From Streptacidiphilus albus JL83 (GTDB lineage: Bacteria > Actinomycetota > Actinomycetes > Streptomycetales > Streptomycetaceae): a stretch of 64,000 nucleotides of DNA. The stretch covers positions 620,001 through 684,000 of the forward strand of contig NZ_JQML01000001.1 in NCBI RefSeq assembly GCF_000744705.1, written 5' to 3'. The notes under the pieces were generated by a model, which was given only the letters and a program-made list of their open reading frames with translations, made no database searches and had not been told where the DNA came from. Numbering within the stretch: position 1 is the stretch's first letter; each line of letters starts with the position of its first letter. Shown here piece by piece: positions 5,103 to 54,562 of this stretch. Position numbers and translations under genes: made by a program.

Positions 5103-6041
5103 TCAGCGCGCCCAGTCGGGGACCCAGACGTCGTCGCCGGCCGTCGCCCGGTACCCGGCCCGGAGGAAGTCGAGGAAGTCGGCGAGGACGGGGTGCGGGT
5201 TGTCCGCCCGCCAGACCACGGAGAGCGGGTAGACCGGGGTCGGGTCGACGACGGGGATCCGGCGGAGGTCGTAGCGCTCCGGCCACAGGTAGCGCGAGCC
5301 CTCGCCGACGAAGGTGGCGAGCCGGGCCGAGCCGGCGATCTCCTCGAGCAGCGCCTCGGCGCCGAAGCTCGGCCCGATCGTGTCGATGGTGAGTCCGAAC
5401 GCCTCGGCCAGGTCGCGGTAGTAGCCGAGCGGCTCCGCGGGCATGCCGGGCATCCAGATGGGGTGGTCGGCGAGCTCGGCCGGCGACACGGACTTGGCGT
5501 TGGCCAACGGGTGCTGCGATCCGACCAGCACCTCGTGCCGGTCGTCGATGACCCGCGCCGCCCGAAGCCCGCTCGGGACCTCCCGGGCCGTGTCCCGGAG
5601 CGACCGAAAGGTGGCGTCGATGGTGCCGGCGGCGACCTCGGCCAGCGCCGACTCCGCCTCGGCGTAGGTCAGGGTGACGACGTCGAGCTCGATCTCCGGG
5701 CGTTGCTGGTAGAAGGCGTGGAGCAGGTTGGAGGGCGCGATCCTGCGGCTGACGACGTCGATCCGCAGGGCTCTGCGTCCCGGAGTCACGGCAGCCCTGG
5801 CGCGTTCGGCGGCGCGGAGGAGTTCGCGGGCGTGCGGCAGCAGCGCCTGCCCGTCGATGGTGAGCCGGACGCCCCTGGCGGTCCGGGTGAACAGGCGCAC
5901 GCCGAGCTCCCGCTCCAGGGTGGCCACCCGCTTCGAGACGGCCTGCTGGGTCACCCCCAGATCGTCGGCGGCGGCCTGGAACTGACCGCCCTCGGCAACG
6001 GCGACGAAGGTGCCCACGGCATCGAGATCCACGTCGCCCAT
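5103..6041 (-). CDS. LysR-type transcriptional regulator
   Basis: LTTR of 312 residues. The N-terminal winged helix (about 1-60) has the signature AADDLGVTQQAVSKRVATLERELGVRLFTR split over the recognition helix, and the remainder is a two-lobed periplasmic-binding-like effector domain (IDVVSRRIAPSNLLHAF begins the first lobe). ATG 6041 is preferred over GTG 6050, which would start inside the upstream palindrome; no clear Shine-Dalgarno site is seen, so the message may be leaderless. It is divergent from an MFS exporter gene with a perfect palindrome between them, so it probably regulates both itself and that transporter. The inducer is unknown. Confidence 0.9.
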   Translation of the reverse strand: MGDVDLDAVGTFVAVAEGGQFQAAADDLGVTQQAVSKRVATLERELGVRLFTRTARGVRLTIDGQALLPHARELLRAAERARAAVTPGRRALRIDVVSRRIAPSNLLHAFYQQRPEIELDVVTLTYAEAESALAEVAAGTIDATFRSLRDTAREVPSGLRAARVIDDRHEVLVGSQHPLANAKSVSPAELADHPIWMPGMPAEPLGYYRDLAEAFGLTIDTIGPSFGAEALLEEIAGSARLATFVGEGSRYLWPERYDLRRIPVVDPTPVYPLSVVWRADNPHPVLADFLDFLRAGYRATAGDDVWVPDWAR

Positions 6042-6050
6042 CCTAGTCAC

Positions 6051-6065
6051 ACAACCAGTGGTTGT
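6051..6065. promoter_or_regulatory. Perfect palindrome, probable LysR binding site
   Basis: ACAACCA-G-TGGTTGT, 7-bp arms around one base, nine bases upstream of the LysR ATG and about 100 nt upstream of the MFS start. It fits the T-N11-A rule for LTTR boxes when read across the centre. Confidence 0.65.
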
Positions 6066-6167
6066 ATTTTCTCGGCGCGGCGGTTGTTTGCTCCGCCGGT
6101 CAGGTCCTTGCTTTGCTGTCGTCGGTCGGCGTGCGGTGGTGCAGGGCGAGAGGGCGGGGCAGGCGAC

Positions 6168-7412
6168 ATGATGGGTCGACGGTCGTTGGGGCGGCAGTTC
6201 GGCTGGCTCTGGACGGCGTACGCGGTCAGCTCGTACGGCACCTGGCTCGCCTTCGACGCGTTCTCACTGGTCGCGATCCTGGTACTGCATGCCGGGGCGA
6301 TCGAGGTGTCGGTGCTGTCGGCCGCCGGGCTGGCGGTGGGCGCGGTGGTGGCGGTGCCGCTCGGGCCCTGGGTGGAGTTCCGCCGGAAGCGGCCGGTGAT
6401 GGTCGCCATGGACCTGGTCCGGTTCGTGGCACTGATGAGCGTCCCGGCGGCGTTCGTCCTCGGCCGGCTCAGCTTCGCCCAACTCCTGGTGGTATCGGTC
6501 CTCGTCGCCGCCGCCGACATCACCTTCACCGCAGCCAGTGGCGCGTGCCTCAAATCGCTGGTGCGCCCGGAGGACATGCTCGTCGCGAGCGGCCGGTTCG
6601 AGTCCACCACCTGGAGCGCCGCGATGGTCGGGCCGCCGCTCGGCGGCATCGCGGTCGGGGTCTTCGGCCCGGTGGTCACGGTGACGGCCGACGCGGTCAG
6701 CTACCTGTTCTCGGCGCTCGGCATCCGCGCGATCGGCGGCAGCGAGCCGCAGCCCGAGCGTTCCGACAGGCCACGGCTGCGGGCCGGCGACCTGTTCGAA
6801 GGGTGGCGGTACATCCTGTCCCACTCCTCGCTGCGCCCGCTGTTCTTCAACGTGATCCTGGTCAACGGCCTGATCATGGCGACCGCGCCCCTGCTCGCCG
6901 TCCTGATGCTCGGCCGCCTCGGCTTCGCCCCCTGGCAGTACGGCCTCGCCTTCGCGGTCCCCTGCGTCGGCGGTCTGATCGGCTCACGGCTGGCCCCTCG
7001 CCTCGTCACCCGGTACGGACGGCAGAAGGTGCTGTTCACCAGCGGAGGCCTGCGCGGCTGCTGGTCGCTCGGGCTGGCCTTCGTCGGCCCCGGCGCCGCC
7101 GGGCTGGTGCTGGTCATGGCCGTCGAGCTCGGGCTCATCGCCTGCTGCAGCGTGTTCAACCCGGTGCTCGCCGCCTACCGGCTCAACCAGCTCCCGGCCG
7201 ACCGGATCACCCGCGCCCTGTCCGCGTGGTCGGTCACCACCAAGGCCGGCACGGCGGCGATGACCGCCCTGTGGGGCCTGCTGGCCGGCCTCACCGGCCC
7301 CCGGACCGCGATCGCGATCGCCGGCCTGCTCATCCTGGCCACCCCGGTGCTGCTCCCCCGCCGCGACCGGGCAGCCGCGCCCGAGCCGGAACCGGCCCTG
7401 AACCGGGCGTGA
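6168..7412 (+). CDS. MFS transporter (MFS_3 / EntS-like exporter)
   Basis: Inner-membrane major facilitator of 414 residues with about 12 predicted membrane helices. It opens with LGRQFGWLWTAYAVSSYGTW, and the loop after helix 2 carries FRRKRPVMVAMDL, the MFS motif-A position in the group of small-molecule and siderophore exporters. Central hydrophilic loop (about residues 190-215) is followed by the second six-helix half; the C-terminus is a short Ala/Pro/Glu tail. ATG 6168 is used; ATG 6171 follows directly and the AG-rich stretch near 6148-6154 is the likely ribosome site. It is divergent from the LysR gene that probably controls it. Export of a toxic or secondary metabolite is the best guess; cargo is unknown. 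Confidence 0.88.
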   Translation: MMGRRSLGRQFGWLWTAYAVSSYGTWLAFDAFSLVAILVLHAGAIEVSVLSAAGLAVGAVVAVPLGPWVEFRRKRPVMVAMDLVRFVALMSVPAAFVLGRLSFAQLLVVSVLVAAADITFTAASGACLKSLVRPEDMLVASGRFESTTWSAAMVGPPLGGIAVGVFGPVVTVTADAVSYLFSALGIRAIGGSEPQPERSDRPRLRAGDLFEGWRYILSHSSLRPLFFNVILVNGLIMATAPLLAVLMLGRLGFAPWQYGLAFAVPCVGGLIGSRLAPRLVTRYGRQKVLFTSGGLRGCWSLGLAFVGPGAAGLVLVMAVELGLIACCSVFNPVLAAYRLNQLPADRITRALSAWSVTTKAGTAAMTALWGLLAGLTGPRTAIAIAGLLILATPVLLPRRDRAAAPEPEPALNRA

Positions 7413-7506
7413 GCCGCCAGGGCGGTCGCGGTCACCGTCGGTCCTCCGCCGATGGATGAGTCCGCCCTCCACCGGTAGACAAGTAGACAAATATCCAGGC
7501 GGGCGG

Positions 7507-7821
7507 TCAGCCGGTGGCGTGGTGGGCCCGGTGGGCGGCGACGCGGACGCGGGTGGCGCAGCGTGGGGTGCAGAAGCGCTGCGGGCTGCGGCGGCCGGTG
7601 TCGACGAAGAAGTGGTCGCAGTCCGCAGCGGCGCAGCGGCCCCAGGCGCAGAGCGGGCCGCCATGGCGCTGCAGCAGCGCCTGGAGGACGGCAGCACCGG
7701 CCTCCGGGTCGTCCTGGACGGTGTTCGCCAGTTCGACGTCCTGCGGCGGGTCCGCTCCGCCCAGCGTGGGCGGCCCGCCGATGCGTGATCGATGGGCCGC
7801 CCTCGGGGACTGCGGCGGGGA
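7507..7821 (-). pseudogene. Remnant of a CGNR/ABATE zinc-finger regulator
   Basis: Open frame of 104 codons ending at TGA 7507-7509 with no ATG, GTG or TTG start. Its last 60 residues are the C-terminal zinc finger of CGNR proteins: CAAADCDHFFVDTGRR, then RFCTPRCATRVRVAAHRA, giving the C-x4-C...C-x3-C ligands; the eponymous CGNR is changed to CATR. Just upstream is DVELANTV, which resembles the start of the ABATE domain (normally over 100 residues before the finger), so most of the middle seems deleted. Intact relatives are stress-linked regulators of about 190 residues. This one cannot be translated as a normal protein. Confidence 0.6.
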
Positions 7822-10182
7822 TCAGCCGGTGGCACCGCACTGGTAGAGCTGCTGCGCGCCTGCTGCCGCACCGGCCGTCGTGCCGGTGCCCGCGCTGTAG
7901 GCGGAGGCCGGAACGGCGGTGCAGGCGGAGCGGACCCAGTCGGTGACCTTGGCCGACGGGGCGGACGAGCCGCCCGCGCCGCCGAAGCCGGCGAAGCCGC
8001 CGAACCCGGAGGAGCCGGCGGTCCTGCCACCGGTGCTGCCGCTGAGCAGCACGTAGTGCAACTGGCCGGCGGCGACGTCCCGCTGGACCTGGGCCAGGGT
8101 GGGCGACGGCACCTCGCCGGTGAAGCCGCCCATCGGCAGCACGTCCGCGCCCTCCGCCATGATGTACGGCGAGGCCGTGCTCCAACTGGTGGTCGCGAAG
8201 ACGTACTTCGCGCCGTCACGGTGTGTCTCGGTGTAGCTGAGCAGGGCCTTCTGCTGAGCCGTCAGCGTCGATCCGCCGCCACCGAACATGGCGCCCATCC
8301 CGGCGCCCATCCCGGCGCCGCCCGCGCCGCCGAACCCGGCTGCGCCGCCCGCGCTCCCGCCGACTCGATGCGCGGCCCCCGCGACCGCAGTGGCACCCCG
8401 GCCGCCGCCGAGGCTGGAGGCCGGACCCACCGTGCCCATGGCGTTGTGCCCGTACTGCGACTCGAAGGCGGACGAGGCCCATGCGGCAGGTGCGATCAGC
8501 ATCGCCGCGAGCCCGGCGACCAGCCCCGCCAGCGCCACCCGACGTCCGGTGGCGCGTCCGCCCGGTCGGCTCAGCGCCAGCAGCACCAGGGCGACCACGC
8601 CGAGGCCCAGCACCACCGGGCCCAGCCAGGACAGGAAGGTCGGGTAGTCCCAGGCGATCACCGCGCCCCAGCCGGCCGTCGCGGCGACGGCTGCGGGCAG
8701 CGCCCAGGCACGGCGTCCGCCGGCGCGGAAGGCCCGCCAGAACTGGGTGACCCCGGCTCCCGTCAGCGCGGCGAGCGGGACCGCGACCACGCCCATGTAG
8801 TAGGTGTGACCGGCGACGCTGCCCGCGCTGAAGACCAGGAAGTACATGGCCAGCCAGACACTCCAGAGCAGGTAGCCGGCCCGCACCGGATCGGTGCGGG
8901 GTCGGCGCCGCCGCCAGATCAGGCCGAGGACGGCGGCGATGGCGGCGATCGGATAGAGCCAGCCGACCTGCGAGGCAAGGGTGGAGCCGAACATCTTGCC
9001 CCAGCCGTTCTGGCCGCTCATGCCGCCGCCGGCACCGCCCCTGGCGCCTGTGGCATGACCACCGGCCCAGCCACCGCCCCCACCGGAGCCGCGCCCGCCG
9101 AAGGCACCGCCCGCGCCCGCGCCCGCTCCGGTGCCGGTGCCGGTGCCGGTGCCGGTGCCGGTGCCGGTGCCGGTGCCGGTGCCGGTGCCGGAGGCTGCGC
9201 CGTAACCCCCGCTGTGGTCTCCGAAACCGCCGCTGTGGCCGCCGCTGTGGCCGCCGCCGTGCGCGGCGCCGCCCCCGGTGGTCGTCGTCACGCTGCCGGT
9301 GTCGGCCGCGCTGATCCCGAGCGAGGAGAAGCGGTTCAGGAAGTTGTAGCCCACGACCATGCTGAAGGCCGAGTTGTTGGTGGTGCCGTCGACGTACGGC
9401 CGGTCCTTGGCCGGGGTGAGGGTGACCACCAGCATCCAGGAGGCGGAGACCGCCACCGCGACCGCTCCGGCGACCGTGAGGTGGATCAGTCGGCGGCGCA
9501 GCGCGGTGGGCGCGGAGACCAGGTAGACCAGGCCCAGCGCGGGCAGCACCGCCCACGCCTCCAGCATCTTGGTCTGGAAGGCCAGCCCGACCCAGACACC
9601 GGCCATCACCAGCGGGCGCAGCCGCGCGTTCTGCGCGGCCCGCTGGGTCGCGTCCGCCGCCAGCAGGAGCAGCAGCGTGAACGCCGCGTCCTCGACCGCG
9701 CTGCGGAACAGCCCGGCCACGACCGGGGTGGCGGTGAAGGCCGCCGCCGCGATCAGTGCCGCATTGGCGCCGGCCCAGCGGCGCACCACCCGGTAGAGCA
9801 CCAGGACGCTGAGCACGCCCTCGATCACCTGCGGCAGCGTCAGCGCCCAGGCGTGGAAGCCGAAGAGTCTCGCGGAGAGCGCCTGCGGCCACAGGAAGCC
9901 GGGGATCTTGTCCAGGGTGATGCTGTTGGCGGGGTCGAAGGAGCCGAAGAGGAACGCCTTCCAGCTCATCGACATGCTGCGGACGGCGTCGGAGTAGAAG
10001 GAGTGGTACTGGCTCTGGCCGATCCCCCAGGTGAAGAGCGCTGCGGCGGCCGCCGCGATCACCAGCAGGACAGGCCGGGCGTATCCAGGTTGGTCCGCCG
10101 GAGAACGCCACGGTGCCCGGCGGGTCCCGGCAGGGGTGGCGGTCGGGGGTGCCGATGCCGCAGGAGGTGCTGTCGTAGCCAT
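7822..10182 (-). CDS. GT39/PMT_2-type membrane glycosyltransferase with Gly-rich loops
   Basis: Polytopic glycosyltransferase (786 residues) of the ArnT/protein O-mannosyltransferase superfold, expected to move a sugar from a polyprenyl-phosphate donor to an extracytoplasmic acceptor. After a Pro/Ala-rich cytoplasmic head comes the first membrane helix, then SFYSDAVRSMSMSWKAF and SITLDKIPGFLWPQAL, conserved in streptomycete family members. About a dozen hydrophobic segments follow. Two low-complexity loops interrupt it: a His/Gly-rich stretch running into a Gly-Thr repeat (DNA repeat at 9128-9187) and Gly/Ala-rich segments near 560-640. The C-terminal soluble part (about 650-786) has SPYIMAEGADVLPMGGFTGE. 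ATG 10182 follows AAGG. Donor and acceptor are unknown. Confidence 0.85.
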   Translation of the reverse strand: MATTAPPAASAPPTATPAGTRRAPWRSPADQPGYARPVLLVIAAAAAALFTWGIGQSQYHSFYSDAVRSMSMSWKAFLFGSFDPANSITLDKIPGFLWPQALSARLFGFHAWALTLPQVIEGVLSVLVLYRVVRRWAGANAALIAAAAFTATPVVAGLFRSAVEDAAFTLLLLLAADATQRAAQNARLRPLVMAGVWVGLAFQTKMLEAWAVLPALGLVYLVSAPTALRRRLIHLTVAGAVAVAVSASWMLVVTLTPAKDRPYVDGTTNNSAFSMVVGYNFLNRFSSLGISAADTGSVTTTTGGGAAHGGGHSGGHSGGFGDHSGGYGAASGTGTGTGTGTGTGTGTGTGTGAGAGAGGAFGGRGSGGGGGWAGGHATGARGGAGGGMSGQNGWGKMFGSTLASQVGWLYPIAAIAAVLGLIWRRRRPRTDPVRAGYLLWSVWLAMYFLVFSAGSVAGHTYYMGVVAVPLAALTGAGVTQFWRAFRAGGRRAWALPAAVAATAGWGAVIAWDYPTFLSWLGPVVLGLGVVALVLLALSRPGGRATGRRVALAGLVAGLAAMLIAPAAWASSAFESQYGHNAMGTVGPASSLGGGRGATAVAGAAHRVGGSAGGAAGFGGAGGAGMGAGMGAMFGGGGSTLTAQQKALLSYTETHRDGAKYVFATTSWSTASPYIMAEGADVLPMGGFTGEVPSPTLAQVQRDVAAGQLHYVLLSGSTGGRTAGSSGFGGFAGFGGAGGSSAPSAKVTDWVRSACTAVPASAYSAGTGTTAGAAAGAQQLYQCGATG
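9128..9187. repeat. 6-bp microsatellite, 10 exact CCGGTG units, inside the GT39 gene
   Basis: Ten uninterrupted copies of CCGGTG on the + strand, encoding a Gly-Thr repeat on the gene's strand, followed by a partial unit. Unit gain or loss keeps the frame, so loop length can vary without inactivating the enzyme. Confidence 0.95.
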
Positions 10183-49402: not shown

Positions 49403-51229
49403 TCAGGGGGTGACGACGGAGAAGGACTTGTCGGGATCGGTGACGTAGGAGAACAGTCGGGCCAGCACGGCCGGATCCCCGTCGTGGTCGATCCCGTCCA
49501 GGCCCTTGCCGGCCAGGACACCGAGGAGTTGGGGCTTGGTGAGGGTGAGCGTGCACTGCGCCGGGGTCTTCGGTGCGGTGCCCAGCGGGACGGTGCGATG
49601 GGTCAGGGCGCCGTTCTGCAGGGTGAGCCGGTGGCGGTTGCCCTCGTCGGTGAGGGCCAGGTCGACGGTGAGGGAATCGTCCCAGGCCCGGGGGCCGTCG
49701 ACGCGCACCGCGATGGAGTCGATCAGCATCTCGGTCGTCAGCGCCATCACCATCCCCTGGTTGGCGGCGTCCAGCAGGATGGTCCCCGGTCCCTCTCGCA
49801 GCTCCACCGCGGCCATCAGGTAGAAGTTGCGCCAGGTGCCGTTCTCCGCGCCGTGGCCGAGCGTCTCGTACACCCCGGCCAGGGCCTCCTTGGCCGCCGT
49901 GTCGTCCGGGTCGGCGAAGACCAGGTGGTTCAGCACGGTGGCGGCGAAGCGCAGATCGCCGTCGGCGACGAAGCCGCGCGCCTTGGCCAGCGCGGCTTCC
50001 GGACCGCCCGCCAGTTCGACGTAGCGCTTGGCCAGTTCCACCGGCGGGTGCTCCCAGAGGTGCGCCGGGTTGCCGTCGAACCAGCCCAGGTACCGCTGGT
50101 AGATCGCCTTGGTGTTGTGGTTCAGCGAGCCGTAGTAGCCGCGCGCGTGCCAGGCCCGCTCCAGCGCGGGCGGCAGCTGCATCTCCTCCGCCAGCTCCGG
50201 ACCGGTCAGACCGGAGTTGAGCATCCGCAGCGTCTGGTCGTGCAGGTAGGCGTACAGGTCGCGCTGCTGCGACAGCAGCTCGACCACCTTGTCCTCGCCC
50301 CAGGTCGGCCAGTGGTGCGAGGCGAACGCCACGTCGTAGGCGCCGTCGAAGAACTCCATCGCCTCGTCCAGGTACCGCGACCAGATCCGCGCGTCGCGGA
50401 CGACCGCTCCGCGCAGGGTCAGGATGTTGTGCATGTTGTGCGTGGCGTTCTCCGCCAGGCACAGCGCGCGGCGCTGCGGGAAGAGGAAGTTCATCTCGGA
50501 CGGGGCCTCGGTGCCCGGGGTGAGCTGGAAGACGATCCGCACGCCGTCGACCGTCTCCTCCTGGCCCGTACGGGTGATGTCCACGGTCGGCGGGATCAGC
50601 GTGATGGTCCCGGTGGAGGTGGTCATCCCCAGCCCTGCGCCGACCTGCCCCTCGGGCGTCTTGGGCAGCCGGTCGCCGTACATGAACATGGCCCGCCGCG
50701 TCATCGCGTTGCCGGCGTAGACGTTCTCGCTGACCGCGTGCTCCAGGAAGCCGGACGGCGCGATCACCGGCACCCCCGCCTCGCTGCCCTCGGGCAGCAC
50801 GCCGCGGGCGCCGCCGAAGTGGTCGCCGTGGGAGTGGGTGTAGATCAGCCCGGTCGCCGGGCGCTCGCCCCGGTGCTGCCGGTACAGCGCCAGCGCGGCC
50901 GCGGCGCACTCGGTCGAGATCAGCGGGTCGATCACGATCACCCCGCGGTCGCCCTCGACCAGCGTCATGTTCGACAGGTCCAGCCCCCGCACCTGGTAGA
51001 TGCCCTCAGCGACCTCGAACAGGCCTTGCTTCGCGCACAGTTGCGCCTGTCGCCACAGGCTCGGGTTGACCGTGTCGGGGCACTCGCCCTTGAGGAAGTC
51101 GTAGGCGTCGTTGTCCCAGACCACCCGCCCGTCGGCGGCCCTGACGACCGCCGGCACCATGGCTCCGAGAAAACCCCGGTCGGCGTTGTCGAAGTCGGTG
51201 GTGTCCTCGAACGAGGGCAGGTGGTTCAC
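49403..51229 (-). CDS. Linear primary-alkylsulfatase (SdsA1-type metallo-beta-lactamase)
   Basis: 608-residue hydrolase releasing sulfate from alkyl sulfates such as SDS. The binuclear zinc site is THSHGDHFGG at residues 131-140, with further ligands expected in FPQRRALCLAENATHNMHN and DVAFASHHWPTW. The middle dimerisation region (about 380-480: RAWHARGYYGSLNHNTKAIY, RYLGWFDGNPAHLWEHPP) and a C-terminal SCP2-like lipid-binding domain (about 490-608) complete the SdsA1 order. There is no signal peptide. GTG 51229 has GGAG eight bases upstream. The SulP transporter gene follows it, giving a sulfate-scavenging unit. Confidence 0.93.
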   Translation of the reverse strand: MNHLPSFEDTTDFDNADRGFLGAMVPAVVRAADGRVVWDNDAYDFLKGECPDTVNPSLWRQAQLCAKQGLFEVAEGIYQVRGLDLSNMTLVEGDRGVIVIDPLISTECAAAALALYRQHRGERPATGLIYTHSHGDHFGGARGVLPEGSEAGVPVIAPSGFLEHAVSENVYAGNAMTRRAMFMYGDRLPKTPEGQVGAGLGMTTSTGTITLIPPTVDITRTGQEETVDGVRIVFQLTPGTEAPSEMNFLFPQRRALCLAENATHNMHNILTLRGAVVRDARIWSRYLDEAMEFFDGAYDVAFASHHWPTWGEDKVVELLSQQRDLYAYLHDQTLRMLNSGLTGPELAEEMQLPPALERAWHARGYYGSLNHNTKAIYQRYLGWFDGNPAHLWEHPPVELAKRYVELAGGPEAALAKARGFVADGDLRFAATVLNHLVFADPDDTAAKEALAGVYETLGHGAENGTWRNFYLMAAVELREGPGTILLDAANQGMVMALTTEMLIDSIAVRVDGPRAWDDSLTVDLALTDEGNRHRLTLQNGALTHRTVPLGTAPKTPAQCTLTLTKPQLLGVLAGKGLDGIDHDGDPAVLARLFSYVTDPDKSFSVVTP

Positions 51230-51507: not shown

Positions 51508-51921
51508 ATGCCGACGGACGACAGCCGCACCCCCTTCGGCGACCGCTCCCCCGTTGATGGGGACGACAGGCCCGGGCCGTGGTGGGAGCAGGGCGAGGAG
51601 CCCGACTACCGCGCCACCCTGGCCAACGAGCGGACCTTCCTGGCCTGGACCCGCACCGCGCTGGCCCTGCTGGTCTGCGCCCTCGGCGGCCTCCAGCTGA
51701 TCAGGGTCGCCCCCTACCCGCTGCGCCTGGCCCTGGCGTGCTACCTGATCGCCCTGTCCGTCGCCGTCACCGCCACCGGGTACTTCCAGTGGCGCGCCCG
51801 GCAGGAGCGGATGCGCCTCCGCCGACCGCTGGGCCACTCCGTCGCCCCGCAGCTCATCGCCCTGGCCTTCCTGGTACTCGCCGGCCTGGTGAGCGCCACC
51901 GCCGCCGTCAGCGTCCACTGA
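51508..51921 (+). CDS. DUF202 (YidH-like) small membrane protein
   Basis: 137 residues. The soluble N-terminus ends in YRATLANERTFLAWTRTALALL, the DUF202 signature, and three membrane helices follow (ALLVCALGGLQLI; ALACYLIALSVAVTATGYF; LIALAFLVLAGLVSATAAV). ATG 51508 has AGGGG upstream. Family function is unknown; members sit in bacterial inner membranes. It is 82 nt upstream of the kinase-MFS fusion on the same strand and may share its transcript. The 278-bp gap before it (51230-51507) contains AT-rich promoter-like sequence near 51300-51335 but no gene. Confidence 0.88.
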   Translation: MPTDDSRTPFGDRSPVDGDDRPGPWWEQGEEPDYRATLANERTFLAWTRTALALLVCALGGLQLIRVAPYPLRLALACYLIALSVAVTATGYFQWRARQERMRLRRPLGHSVAPQLIALAFLVLAGLVSATAAVSVH

Positions 51922-52003
51922 CCGGCTGCCGCCGCTCCTCGGCGGGCGACATGATTCGTCCGTAGGCCAGACCTCCGCTGGGCAGTTGGTCTATCTTTCT
52001 CCC

Positions 52004-54562
52004 GTGGAACAGCTGATCAACGAGGACCCGACGCATATAGGCCCCTACCGCCTGATCGCCCGACTGGGGGCCGGCGGCATGGGCCTGGTCTATCTGGGCC
52101 GTTCCGACCTCGGGCGCACCGTGGCCGTGAAGGTCGTCCAGCCCGAGTACGCCGAGCACCCCGAGTTCCGCAGGCGCTTCGCCCGCGAGGTGGCCGCGGC
52201 GCGGCTGGTGGGCGGGCACTGGACGGCGGCGGTGCTGGACGCCGACCCGGAGGCCGCCGTCCCCTGGGTGGCGACCCAGTACATCCCGGGGCCCGACCTG
52301 CAGACCGTGGTCGGCACGGACTTCGGGCCGCTGCCCGAGCACTCGGTCCACACCCTCGCCAACCGCCTGGCCGCCGCCCTGCAGGCCATCCACGGGGCGG
52401 GACTGATCCACCGTGACCTCAAGCCGTCCAATGTCCTGGTCACCGTCGACGGCCCGCGCGTCATCGACTTCGGCATCGCCCGGGCGATGGACAGCCTGGC
52501 CGGGGACAGCCTCCACACCCACACCGGCATGCTGATCGGCTCCCCCGGCTTCATGTCGCCGGAACAGGTCCGCGGCCTGGAGCTCACCCCCGCCAGCGAC
52601 GTCTTCTGCCTGGGCGCCGTCCTCGTCCACGCCGCCACCGGACGGTTCCTCTTCGGCGCCAGGGACACCGGGCTGAACGCCCATCTCTTCCGGATCGCGG
52701 AGGAGGAAGCCGACCTGACCGGCGTCCCGGAGAGCCTGGTCGACCTCGTCGCCGCCTGCCTCCACAAGGACCCGGCCCGGCGGCCCACCCCCGAGCAGGT
52801 GGCCGCCCGCACGGCCACCGACCGGACCACGGAGTGGCTGCCCGGCCCGGTGCTGGCACAGCTCGGCCGCCATGCGGCGGAGCTGCTGGACTTCGCGCCG
52901 GCGGTGGAGTCCGTCGCCCCGGTGGTGCTCACCGCAGCACCGGTGGCCGACGCCGTCGCGCCCGCGCTGCCCCCGATGCCCGCGTACGCCCCGTCGGCCC
53001 CTGTGTCTCCGGGGCAGTTCGGCCCGCCGCCGCCGGGCTTCGGACCGCCCCCGGCGGCCTTCACCGGCTACCGGCCCGGTCCCCTGCCGCCGACCACCGC
53101 CGAGGACCCCGCCTCCTTCGCCGACTACCAGGACCCGGCGCCCGCGCACCCCCGGCGCTGGTGGGGCCTGGCCGTGGTCGCCCTGGCGCAGCTGCTGGTG
53201 CTGCTGCAGGCGGGGTCGTTCACCATCGCGTTCCCGGCCATGGAGCGTGACCTGCACCTGACCTCCGACAGCCTGAGCGCGATGACCAACGCCTATCCGC
53301 TGGCCTTCCTCGGACTGCTGCTGCTCGGCGGACACCTCGCCGACCTCCTGGGGCGCAAGCAGCTGCTGATCGTCGGCCTGGTCGGCTTCGCGGCGGCCTC
53401 GGTGCTCGCCGGCACCGCCGGCGATGCCACCACGCTGGACTGGGCCCGCGCCCTGCAGGGGGTCTCCGCCGCGCTGCTGGCTCCGGCCGCGCTGTCGCTG
53501 GTGGCCGGCAACTTCACCGACCCGAGGGAACGGCGCCGGGCCCTCGGGGTCTACACCGCGATCGTCGGCGGCGGCTCGCTGCTCGGGCTGTACACCGGCG
53601 GCTGGCTGGTCGAGAACCTGGACTGGCAGTGGGCGCTGATGGCGGACGTCCCCGTCGCCGCCGTGGTCCTGGTCGGCGCGCTCACCCTGCTGCACGACCG
53701 TCCGGCCCGGACCGGCACCCACGTCGACGTGCTCGGCGTGCTGCTCGGCTGCGGCGGCCTGGCCGTCCTCGGCTACGGCCTCACCTACGGCGTGCCGCAC
53801 GGCTGGACCAGCCTCGCGGCGCTGCTCCCGCTCGCGGCGGGCGTCCTCCTGCTGGTCGCCTTCCTGTGGTGGCAGACCGTGACGTCGACGCCGCTCCTCG
53901 CGCGCTACGTCTTCATGGACCGGGGCCGGGCCGGCAGTCTGCTCGCCATGCTGCCGGCGGCCGTCGGCGTCATCGGCCCCTTCACCGCCCTGGTCTACGT
54001 CCTGCAGCTCGTCCTCGGCTACTCCCCGGCCGGGACCGGGCTGGCCCTCCTCCCCGTGGTCGCCGCGCTCTTCGTCGGCTCCACCCAGGTCTCGCCCCGG
54101 CTGCTGCACCGGGTCGGCGCCCGGGTGCTGGTCGCGGCCGGCCTGGGGACCGCTGCCGTCGGACTGCTGCTGCTCACCGGCCTGACCATCGACAGCGGGT
54201 ACGAGAGCGGGCTGCTGCCCGGCCTGGTCCTCGTCGGCCTCGGGACCGGCGTGGCCTTCATGCCCCTCTTCGCCACCGCGACCGGCGCCGCCAACCCCCG
54301 GTGCTCCGGCGCCGCCTCGGCCGCGGTCGTCGCGGCCCAGCAGCTGGGCGTGGCGCTCGGCGCGGCGCTGCTCACCCGCGTCTTCAACGCCCACTCGCAC
54401 CTGGCCGCCGACACAGCCGTGGCGGTCGAAACGACGGCGCTGCACGGCTGCAGCGCCACCCTCTGGTGGGCCTTCGGCGCCACCCTGCTCGCGGGGCTGG
54501 TCGGCGGGCTGGTGATCAGCGGCAGGGCGTCGAAGCAGGACCGCGTCCCGGCGGCCCGCTGA
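52004..54562 (+). CDS. Ser/Thr protein kinase fused to an EmrB/QacA-type MFS transporter
   Basis: 852-residue chimera. Residues about 14-280 are a Hanks-type kinase: Gly loop GAGGMG (22-27), VAVKVV with Lys43, LIHRDLKPSNVLV with Asp138, VIDFGIA with Asp155, GSPGFMSPEQ and DVFCLGAVLVHAATG; all catalytic residues are present. Residues about 300-380 are a Pro/Ala-rich linker (FGPPPPGFGPPPAAF). From about 384 to 840 a drug/H+ antiporter of the 14-helix type follows: FTIAFPAMERDLHLTSDSL, GGHLADLLGRKQ (motif A), LDWARALQGVSAALLAPAAL, and GGGSLLGLYTGGWLVE (motif C region). GTG 52004 lacks a ribosome site but has TATCTT 7-12 bases upstream, so it may be leaderless. Most STPKs have a single membrane helix; a transporter here is rare. 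Confidence 0.9.
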   Translation: MEQLINEDPTHIGPYRLIARLGAGGMGLVYLGRSDLGRTVAVKVVQPEYAEHPEFRRRFAREVAAARLVGGHWTAAVLDADPEAAVPWVATQYIPGPDLQTVVGTDFGPLPEHSVHTLANRLAAALQAIHGAGLIHRDLKPSNVLVTVDGPRVIDFGIARAMDSLAGDSLHTHTGMLIGSPGFMSPEQVRGLELTPASDVFCLGAVLVHAATGRFLFGARDTGLNAHLFRIAEEEADLTGVPESLVDLVAACLHKDPARRPTPEQVAARTATDRTTEWLPGPVLAQLGRHAAELLDFAPAVESVAPVVLTAAPVADAVAPALPPMPAYAPSAPVSPGQFGPPPPGFGPPPAAFTGYRPGPLPPTTAEDPASFADYQDPAPAHPRRWWGLAVVALAQLLVLLQAGSFTIAFPAMERDLHLTSDSLSAMTNAYPLAFLGLLLLGGHLADLLGRKQLLIVGLVGFAAASVLAGTAGDATTLDWARALQGVSAALLAPAALSLVAGNFTDPRERRRALGVYTAIVGGGSLLGLYTGGWLVENLDWQWALMADVPVAAVVLVGALTLLHDRPARTGTHVDVLGVLLGCGGLAVLGYGLTYGVPHGWTSLAALLPLAAGVLLLVAFLWWQTVTSTPLLARYVFMDRGRAGSLLAMLPAAVGVIGPFTALVYVLQLVLGYSPAGTGLALLPVVAALFVGSTQVSPRLLHRVGARVLVAAGLGTAAVGLLLLTGLTIDSGYESGLLPGLVLVGLGTGVAFMPLFATATGAANPRCSGAASAAVVAAQQLGVALGAALLTRVFNAHSHLAADTAVAVETTALHGCSATLWWAFGATLLAGLVGGLVISGRASKQDRVPAAR

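Follow-up and report, generated by a model that had tools for sequence, protein, structure and literature searches.

The window analyzed here, a 64,000-nucleotide stretch of Streptacidiphilus albus JL83 (positions 620001-684000 of the 9.9-Mb single-contig genome), contains a gene at 52004..54562 on the + strand in which a Hanks-type Ser/Thr kinase is joined to a membrane domain of the major facilitator superfamily (MFS) derived from DHA2/EmrB exporters. On balance we favor the reading that its product is a receptor Ser/Thr kinase with the exporter-derived membrane domain in the sensor slot, and that export is probably not needed for signaling. What is new here is that, judged by comparison with its relatives, the exporter half resembles a sensor from which transporter features are being lost.

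The gene is a single stop-free frame with a GTG start that encodes 852 aa (the coordinates include the stop codon), and it has four parts, all on the + strand. The kinase domain (residues 15-267; 52046..52804) matches PF00069 with 122.9 bits against a cut-off of 31.7, and is followed by a post-kinase segment, EWLPGPVLAQLGRHAAELLDFAP (residues 277-299; 52832..52900), in which several columns are invariant among 31 aligned fusion rows. A Pro-rich linker (residues 300-384; 52901..53155) with one retained Ser/Thr position, 331 (Ser here), leads into the MFS domain (residues 385-845; 53156..54538), which is recognized by PF07690 and TIGR00711 and for which EfpA chains are the best matches in the PDB. 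The PF07690 (MFS_1) match covers residues 393-787 with 131.8 bits (cut-off 33.4) and spans profile positions 2-347 of 347, which places this half within the superfamily. The preliminary description of this DNA, an intact kinase and a transporter in one frame, is thus borne out by the open frame and by Pfam matches to both halves.

The fusion is real and is not an artefact of joined genes, as it recurs in other genomes. A scan of genome contigs yielded at least 583 stretches, of which 546 encode a relative, and the best 80 were kept, corresponding to 79 loci; among these and the loci from the window's own genome and genus, 39 open reading frames match both halves. Removal of a duplicate (L089 from genome G008, with the same identities as L012 from Streptacidiphilus pinicola) and of three broken copies (L031, L038 and L093) leaves 35 fusions that are each in a single frame (31 full length, four truncated) and come from 33 genomes, so the domain check over relatives proposed with the preliminary description finds both domains in one frame repeatedly. 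A further copy, L043, has a degenerate MFS half (34.2 bits, cut-off 33.4) and stands outside the 35, and both it and the split copy L091 were included in the kinase tree described below. The broken copies carry an in-frame stop in the kinase (L031), a frame change in the MFS half (L038), a frame change in the linker (L091/L102 in genome G009, the sole linker case), or one in the kinase (L093 in genome G005).

The fusion is a patchy, accessory gene. In the window's genus, at least three of 14 genomes, its own included, match both halves in one frame, and at least two more (G009 and G005) have the halves in different frames. A family-wide draw gave at least one single-frame genome in 41 (again its own), along with the split G009, and G044, which matches residues 327-850 only and contains a TGA. 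The G044 row (L119, G044:C143:9-1532) is an MFS part 51% identical to the window protein over those residues, with one internal TGA and at a contig edge, and may represent either a stand-alone relative or a fusion that has broken. In Streptomyces, the genus of L014, at least seven of 41 genomes have the fusion, with G090 having it twice; the centre of that draw, G050, was picked for having the fusion, leaving six among the other 40. Because 23 candidates were scored per genome in the family-wide and Streptomyces draws, these counts are lower bounds, and G055 may be an additional instance (kinase identity 82%, open frame of 928 aa). Strains ADI95-17 and sk2.1 have two fusions apiece, whose kinases are 86.1 and 88.0% identical and whose MFS parts (residues 385-660) are 38.3 and 39.5% identical, and strain ISL-43 has one truncated fusion and one with a stop in the kinase. 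Paired copies within a strain would be consistent with several detectors that share one output. In two fusions (L020:5983-8886 and L082:5983-8781) the MFS half is followed by roughly 100 additional C-terminal residues; these two tails are similar to each other, and a Pfam scan of the whole L082 protein identified no extra domain.

The kinase half has all of the Hanks-type catalytic residues tested. Lys43, Glu62, the HRD motif (136-138), Asn143, the DFG motif (155-157), and the activation-loop residues Thr172 and Thr174 are all present, in agreement with the intact kinase described previously, and K43, E62, D138, N143, D155, T172, T174, and the APE-type E187 do not vary among the fusion rows compared (36 of 36; the 37th, L031, was omitted as its kinase is cut by a stop). 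The two activation-loop threonines (52517..52525, + strand), also found in 31 of 31 of the rows noted above, are likely autophosphorylation sites by analogy with Thr171 and Thr173 of PknB. PknB and PknA are the closest solved chains by sequence for the kinase half, as is EfpA for the MFS half. The best NCBIfam match of the kinase half is to the Streptomyces kinase AfsK (NF053615; residues 1-272), although with 290.5 bits it is far below the curated cut-off of 1300 and only model positions 1-266 of 809 are matched, such that the protein does not qualify as an AfsK equivalog. The C-terminal half of AfsK is a PQQ-type propeller; no propeller family is among the Pfam matches of the window protein at an E value of 0.001, and an MFS half is present instead. 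Its need for ATP places the kinase in the cytosol, in keeping with the usual topology of MFS proteins.

In a tree of 113 kinase domains the fusion kinases form one clade, with a single change of state sufficing for all 38 MFS-bearing rows. Support at the base of this clade is 86/37, rising to 97/86 when L024 is left out, and 82% of 200 bootstrap trees agree with it. The closest row outside the clade, L041, has a kinase 79% identical to that of the window protein together with a similar post-kinase segment, and differs in having a substrate-binding domain (OpuAC) behind one transmembrane (TM) helix and no MFS; L045 and the L044 pair are the next out. The post-kinase segment, WLPxxVLxQLGxHxAxLLD, is common to the fusions and to sister kinases without an MFS, from which we infer that the kinase and segment constitute a constant module with an exchangeable C-terminal part. 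The MFS domain occupies the sensor position of the sister kinases. The L044 locus (5638-10028) encodes two tandem sister kinases, each with one TM helix and no Pfam domain after the kinase. In a neighboring clade, the kinase at L066:8663-10576 has several C-terminal TM segments in a hydropathy scan, and is possibly another type of membrane sensor.

The two halves are under markedly different constraint, the MFS half being weakly constrained and the kinase half strongly conserved. Across 528 pairs of 33 fusions (L031, L038, L039 and L090 were omitted), the kinase averages 86.9% identity, the linker 53.3%, and the MFS 44.4%, with median synonymous divergence (dS) of 0.55, 0.84, and 0.53, respectively. 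The near-equal dS values of the kinase and MFS halves make both look equally old, and for the same reason we discarded gene conversion and an exchange of halves as sources of the conservation gap. The comparison set was drawn from the window's genus and comprises 21 stand-alone DHA2 relatives (210 pairs), treated with the same NG86 method; the ratio of nonsynonymous to synonymous divergence (dN/dS) climbs with divergence in these controls also. All 528 fusion and 210 control pairs were matched by dS. At dS of 0.13-0.25, dN/dS for the fusion MFS is 0.58-1.13 (median 0.75, nine pairs) against 0.12-0.51 (median 0.28, 14 pairs) for the controls, and at dS of 0.25-0.35 it is 0.66-1.46 (median 0.98, 12 pairs) against 0.30-0.42 (median 0.37, eight pairs), with no overlap. 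For the kinases in these fusion pairs, dN/dS is 0.06-0.29, with medians of 0.12-0.16.

The architecture of the MFS half is that of a 14-helix DHA2 protein. The 14-TM EmrB model TIGR00711 matches residues 391-816 with 164.1 bits, which is under its curated cut-off of 230.2 and does not assign the protein to that subfamily. A hydropathy scan, crude and with overlapping segments merged by eye, gives 13 helices after residue 385 and misses TM5, which together fit 14. In DHA2 pumps the TM1 Asp and the motif-B Arg matter for proton coupling, and these positions were compared across aligned MFS parts from 37 fusions and 22 stand-alone proteins. At the TM1 position the window protein has Gln402 (53207..53209, + strand), where each of the 22 stand-alone relatives has Asp; among the fusions this position is acidic in 23 of 37 (17 Asp and six Glu). 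The motif-B Arg in TM4 (Arg482; 53447..53449, + strand) is kept in the window protein and in 26 of 37 fusions, lost in the other 11, and present in 22 of 22 stand-alone relatives. Mapped on the kinase tree (36 rows), the TM1 acid has changed state at least eight times and the motif-B Arg at least four. Widening the DHA2 control brought in six more frames. Of these, L115 (partial, with both Asp and Arg present) is the one usable stand-alone row; the others are a frame in L023 considered below, two pieces of the frame-split G009 copy in which the Arg is kept and there is no TM1 acid, and two spurious frames. The full 14-helix exporter that was initially proposed agrees with the helix count, but the TM1 Gln and the weak constraint make an exporter function doubtful; the accompanying suggestion that the MFS part might be a sensor is supported as a possibility.

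The strongest sign that signaling does not need transport comes from fusions with a truncated MFS half and a constrained kinase. Four of these (L019, L023, L025, and L026, from four species) form one clade with support of 99/91 and end at similar positions after approximately TM9, so that most of an MFS carrier's C-terminal half is missing; by Pfam they consist of a kinase and a partial MFS_1 that ends at profile position 188-260 of 347. Using three fusion proteins as tblastn queries, no MFS remainder was found beside the truncated genes, the only other match being a separate MFS gene in L023. Their kinases are intact, and the three pairs formed by L019, L023, and L025 give kinase dN/dS of 0.11-0.20. 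A carrier lacking its C-terminal bundle should not transport as a normal MFS protein does, and transport is probably dispensable in at least part of the fusion family. A further fusion (L118:6001-7689), on a 439-kb linear Streptomyces plasmid, has about six MFS helices, about half of an MFS. The frame after its stop is MFS-like for a few residues, so it may be a broken remnant and was excluded from the truncated clade. It is annotated 'MFS transporter', an automatic name that hides the kinase.

A plausible scheme is that the N-terminal kinase lies in the cytosol and is connected by the flexible Pro-rich linker to the DHA2-exporter-derived membrane domain, which would replace the single helix and external sensor domain of the sister kinases. 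The membrane domain would respond to a ligand, which may be hydrophobic or drug-like, or to the state of the membrane, and the linker would relay the change such that the kinase autophosphorylates Thr172 and Thr174. The activated kinase would then phosphorylate conserved, separate targets, and export may be lost, probably being unnecessary for signaling.

Several observations weigh against this reading. The contrast in constraint fades with divergence: at dS of 0.35-0.45 the ranges overlap (median dN/dS 1.12 for 103 fusion pairs, 0.51 for 40 control pairs), and at 0.45-0.6 it is almost gone (0.98 for 246 pairs, 0.84 for 139). NG86 is a simple count that is crude for GC-rich genes and the pairs are non-independent, for which reasons only the low-dS contrast is used, and the stand-alone controls are a more closely knit set than the fusions. 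The weak support at the base of the MFS clade means that L041 could lie inside it. The loss of a TM1 Asp is shared by a distant non-fused MFS frame (L023 9558-10988), and loss of the motif-C Pro was rejected as a sign of inactivity: it is absent from 36 of 37 fusion rows and also from 22 of 22 stand-alone rows, and because the stand-alone relatives share the loss it is uninformative. In the window protein itself the MFS half is full length, and motif A and the Arg of motif B are both retained. These last features, together with the full length of 31 of the 35 single-frame fusions, are what a true transceptor would have, in which the MFS half still exports its ligand while signaling through the kinase, and there is a precedent in CbrA, which moves histidine via its SSS domain (PMC7918813). 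We consider this unlikely, as the Gln at the TM1 Asp position, the truncated clade, and the weak constraint on the MFS half all argue otherwise.

Rapid change of the MFS half could equally be plain decay, and it might be a decaying membrane anchor for a kinase whose input comes from elsewhere. The NG86 dN/dS values near 1, the loss of residues kept in stand-alone relatives, and the half-length versions, including the plasmid gene, are consistent with this. We nevertheless regard it as improbable: 51 MFS positions have one residue in at least 90% of 29 full-length fusions (a degree of conservation that also weighs against the favored reading), truncation is rare (four of 35) with a shared end in one clade, and the frames of full-length copies are open over more than 400 codons.

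It is similarly doubtful that the kinase controls the exporter attached to it through phosphorylation of the linker or loops, although both parts are in one chain and candidate sites exist. Past the Pfam kinase match, Ser/Thr occurs in at least 80% of 31 rows at position 270 (30/31, at the kinase edge) and at position 331 in the linker (28/31; context AYxPTAP). In the MFS half no Ser/Thr position reaches 80% when gaps are scored as misses, and three do when gaps are set aside: 694 (20/23), 760 (24/27), and 817 (21/26). All three lie beyond the end of the truncated clade and are missing from it, indicating that the MFS half as a substrate is not needed by the whole family. In addition, the kinase is far better conserved than its supposed target, and the sister kinases are similar yet lack any transporter. 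The earlier suggestion that the transporter could be the kinase's substrate is thus less likely, with these three positions remaining in its favor. Finally, it is very improbable that a sequencing error joined two genes here, for although in G009 the two halves occupy separate frames and the switch lies within a G/C-rich repeat of the linker, this artefact, which the preliminary description paired with separate genes in relatives, is contradicted by the 35 single-frame copies in 33 genomes, which share the domain order and Pro-rich linker and fall in one clade, and by four broken copies that are each broken at a different place.

The kinase-MFS architecture is already catalogued and, within the literature searched, unstudied. 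TCDB family 2.A.1.34, 'Sensor Kinase-MFS Fusion' (SK-MFS), is tabulated with one member, from S. coelicolor judging by the table layout, and with substrate and function unknown (PMC3924187); the window protein likewise has a kinase and an MFS in one polypeptide, the two being compared by name and description, and the table passage does not state the kinase type. No other paper on kinase-MFS fusions or using the SK-MFS name was found in that literature. Proteins listed at NCBI as 'bifunctional serine/threonine-protein kinase/ABC transporter ...', known here by their listing names alone, have a related N-terminal kinase (53-54% identity). Among the DHA2 exporters, the MFS half matches EfpA, EmrB, and QacA in sequence (QacA by family model), from which it differs by scoring under the EmrB cut-off, by the attached kinase, and by Gln at the TM1 Asp position. 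A mycobacterial kinase with a MalT-like domain and kinases with solute-binding domains have been listed (PMC1262709), and the terms 'MFS' and 'facilitator' do not occur in the main text of that paper or of PMC2877116. The closest functional precedent within the literature searched is CbrA, a single chain of transporter and kinase whose halves can each function on their own and whose SSS part modulates the kinetics of the autokinase (PMC7918813). CbrA and MxtR/CrbS (SSS with a histidine kinase; PMC7918813) resemble the window protein in combining a transporter and a sensor kinase in one chain, but have an unrelated transporter fold and kinase class in the opposite order, making this an analogy and not homology.

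The fusion appears to be transcribed on its own. All 37 aligned rows start with GTG, in support of this start codon, and a -10-like box, TATCTT (51992..51997, + strand), ends 6 nt before it; the corresponding TAnnnT-like columns at -12 to -7 have T at -12 in 26 of 37 rows, A at -11 in 29, and T at -7 in 30. None of the 37 aligned upstream regions has GGAG, GAGG, or AGGA at -16 to -4, and these features suggest a leaderless mRNA from the gene's own promoter. A DUF202 membrane protein gene, identified by Pfam, lies 82 nt upstream (51532-51921), as the preliminary description had noted; tblastn at E 1e-3 finds no copy at 42 other loci, some of which have short flanks. We rejected an operon with DUF202 on these grounds and that of the fusion's own -10-like box, and the two genes are probably unrelated. 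No neighbor family is common to most loci; groups join four to 12 loci. Noise frames or kinases account for part of the larger ones, the largest seeming to consist of noise frames, and the remaining groups are of close relatives. Upstream of the DUF202 gene is an alkyl sulfatase-like gene of the metallo-beta-lactamase fold (49403-51229, - strand; Alkyl_sulf_dimr and Alkyl_sulf_C).

To our knowledge, most Streptomyces Ser/Thr kinases have no known signal. A tentative and broader proposal is that the fold of a multidrug exporter now serves a Ser/Thr kinase as a sensor independent of transport. Streptomycetes would maintain one or more such kinases, whose outputs are nearly identical and whose exporter-like ligand domains diverge, half-transporters included, as a detector set for antibiotics or other small hydrophobic compounds. 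The natural truncated copies make a sensor without transport directly testable. If the proposal is correct, an exporter-derived input domain would tie drug recognition directly to phosphorylation, perhaps with a link to the control of antibiotic production or stress.

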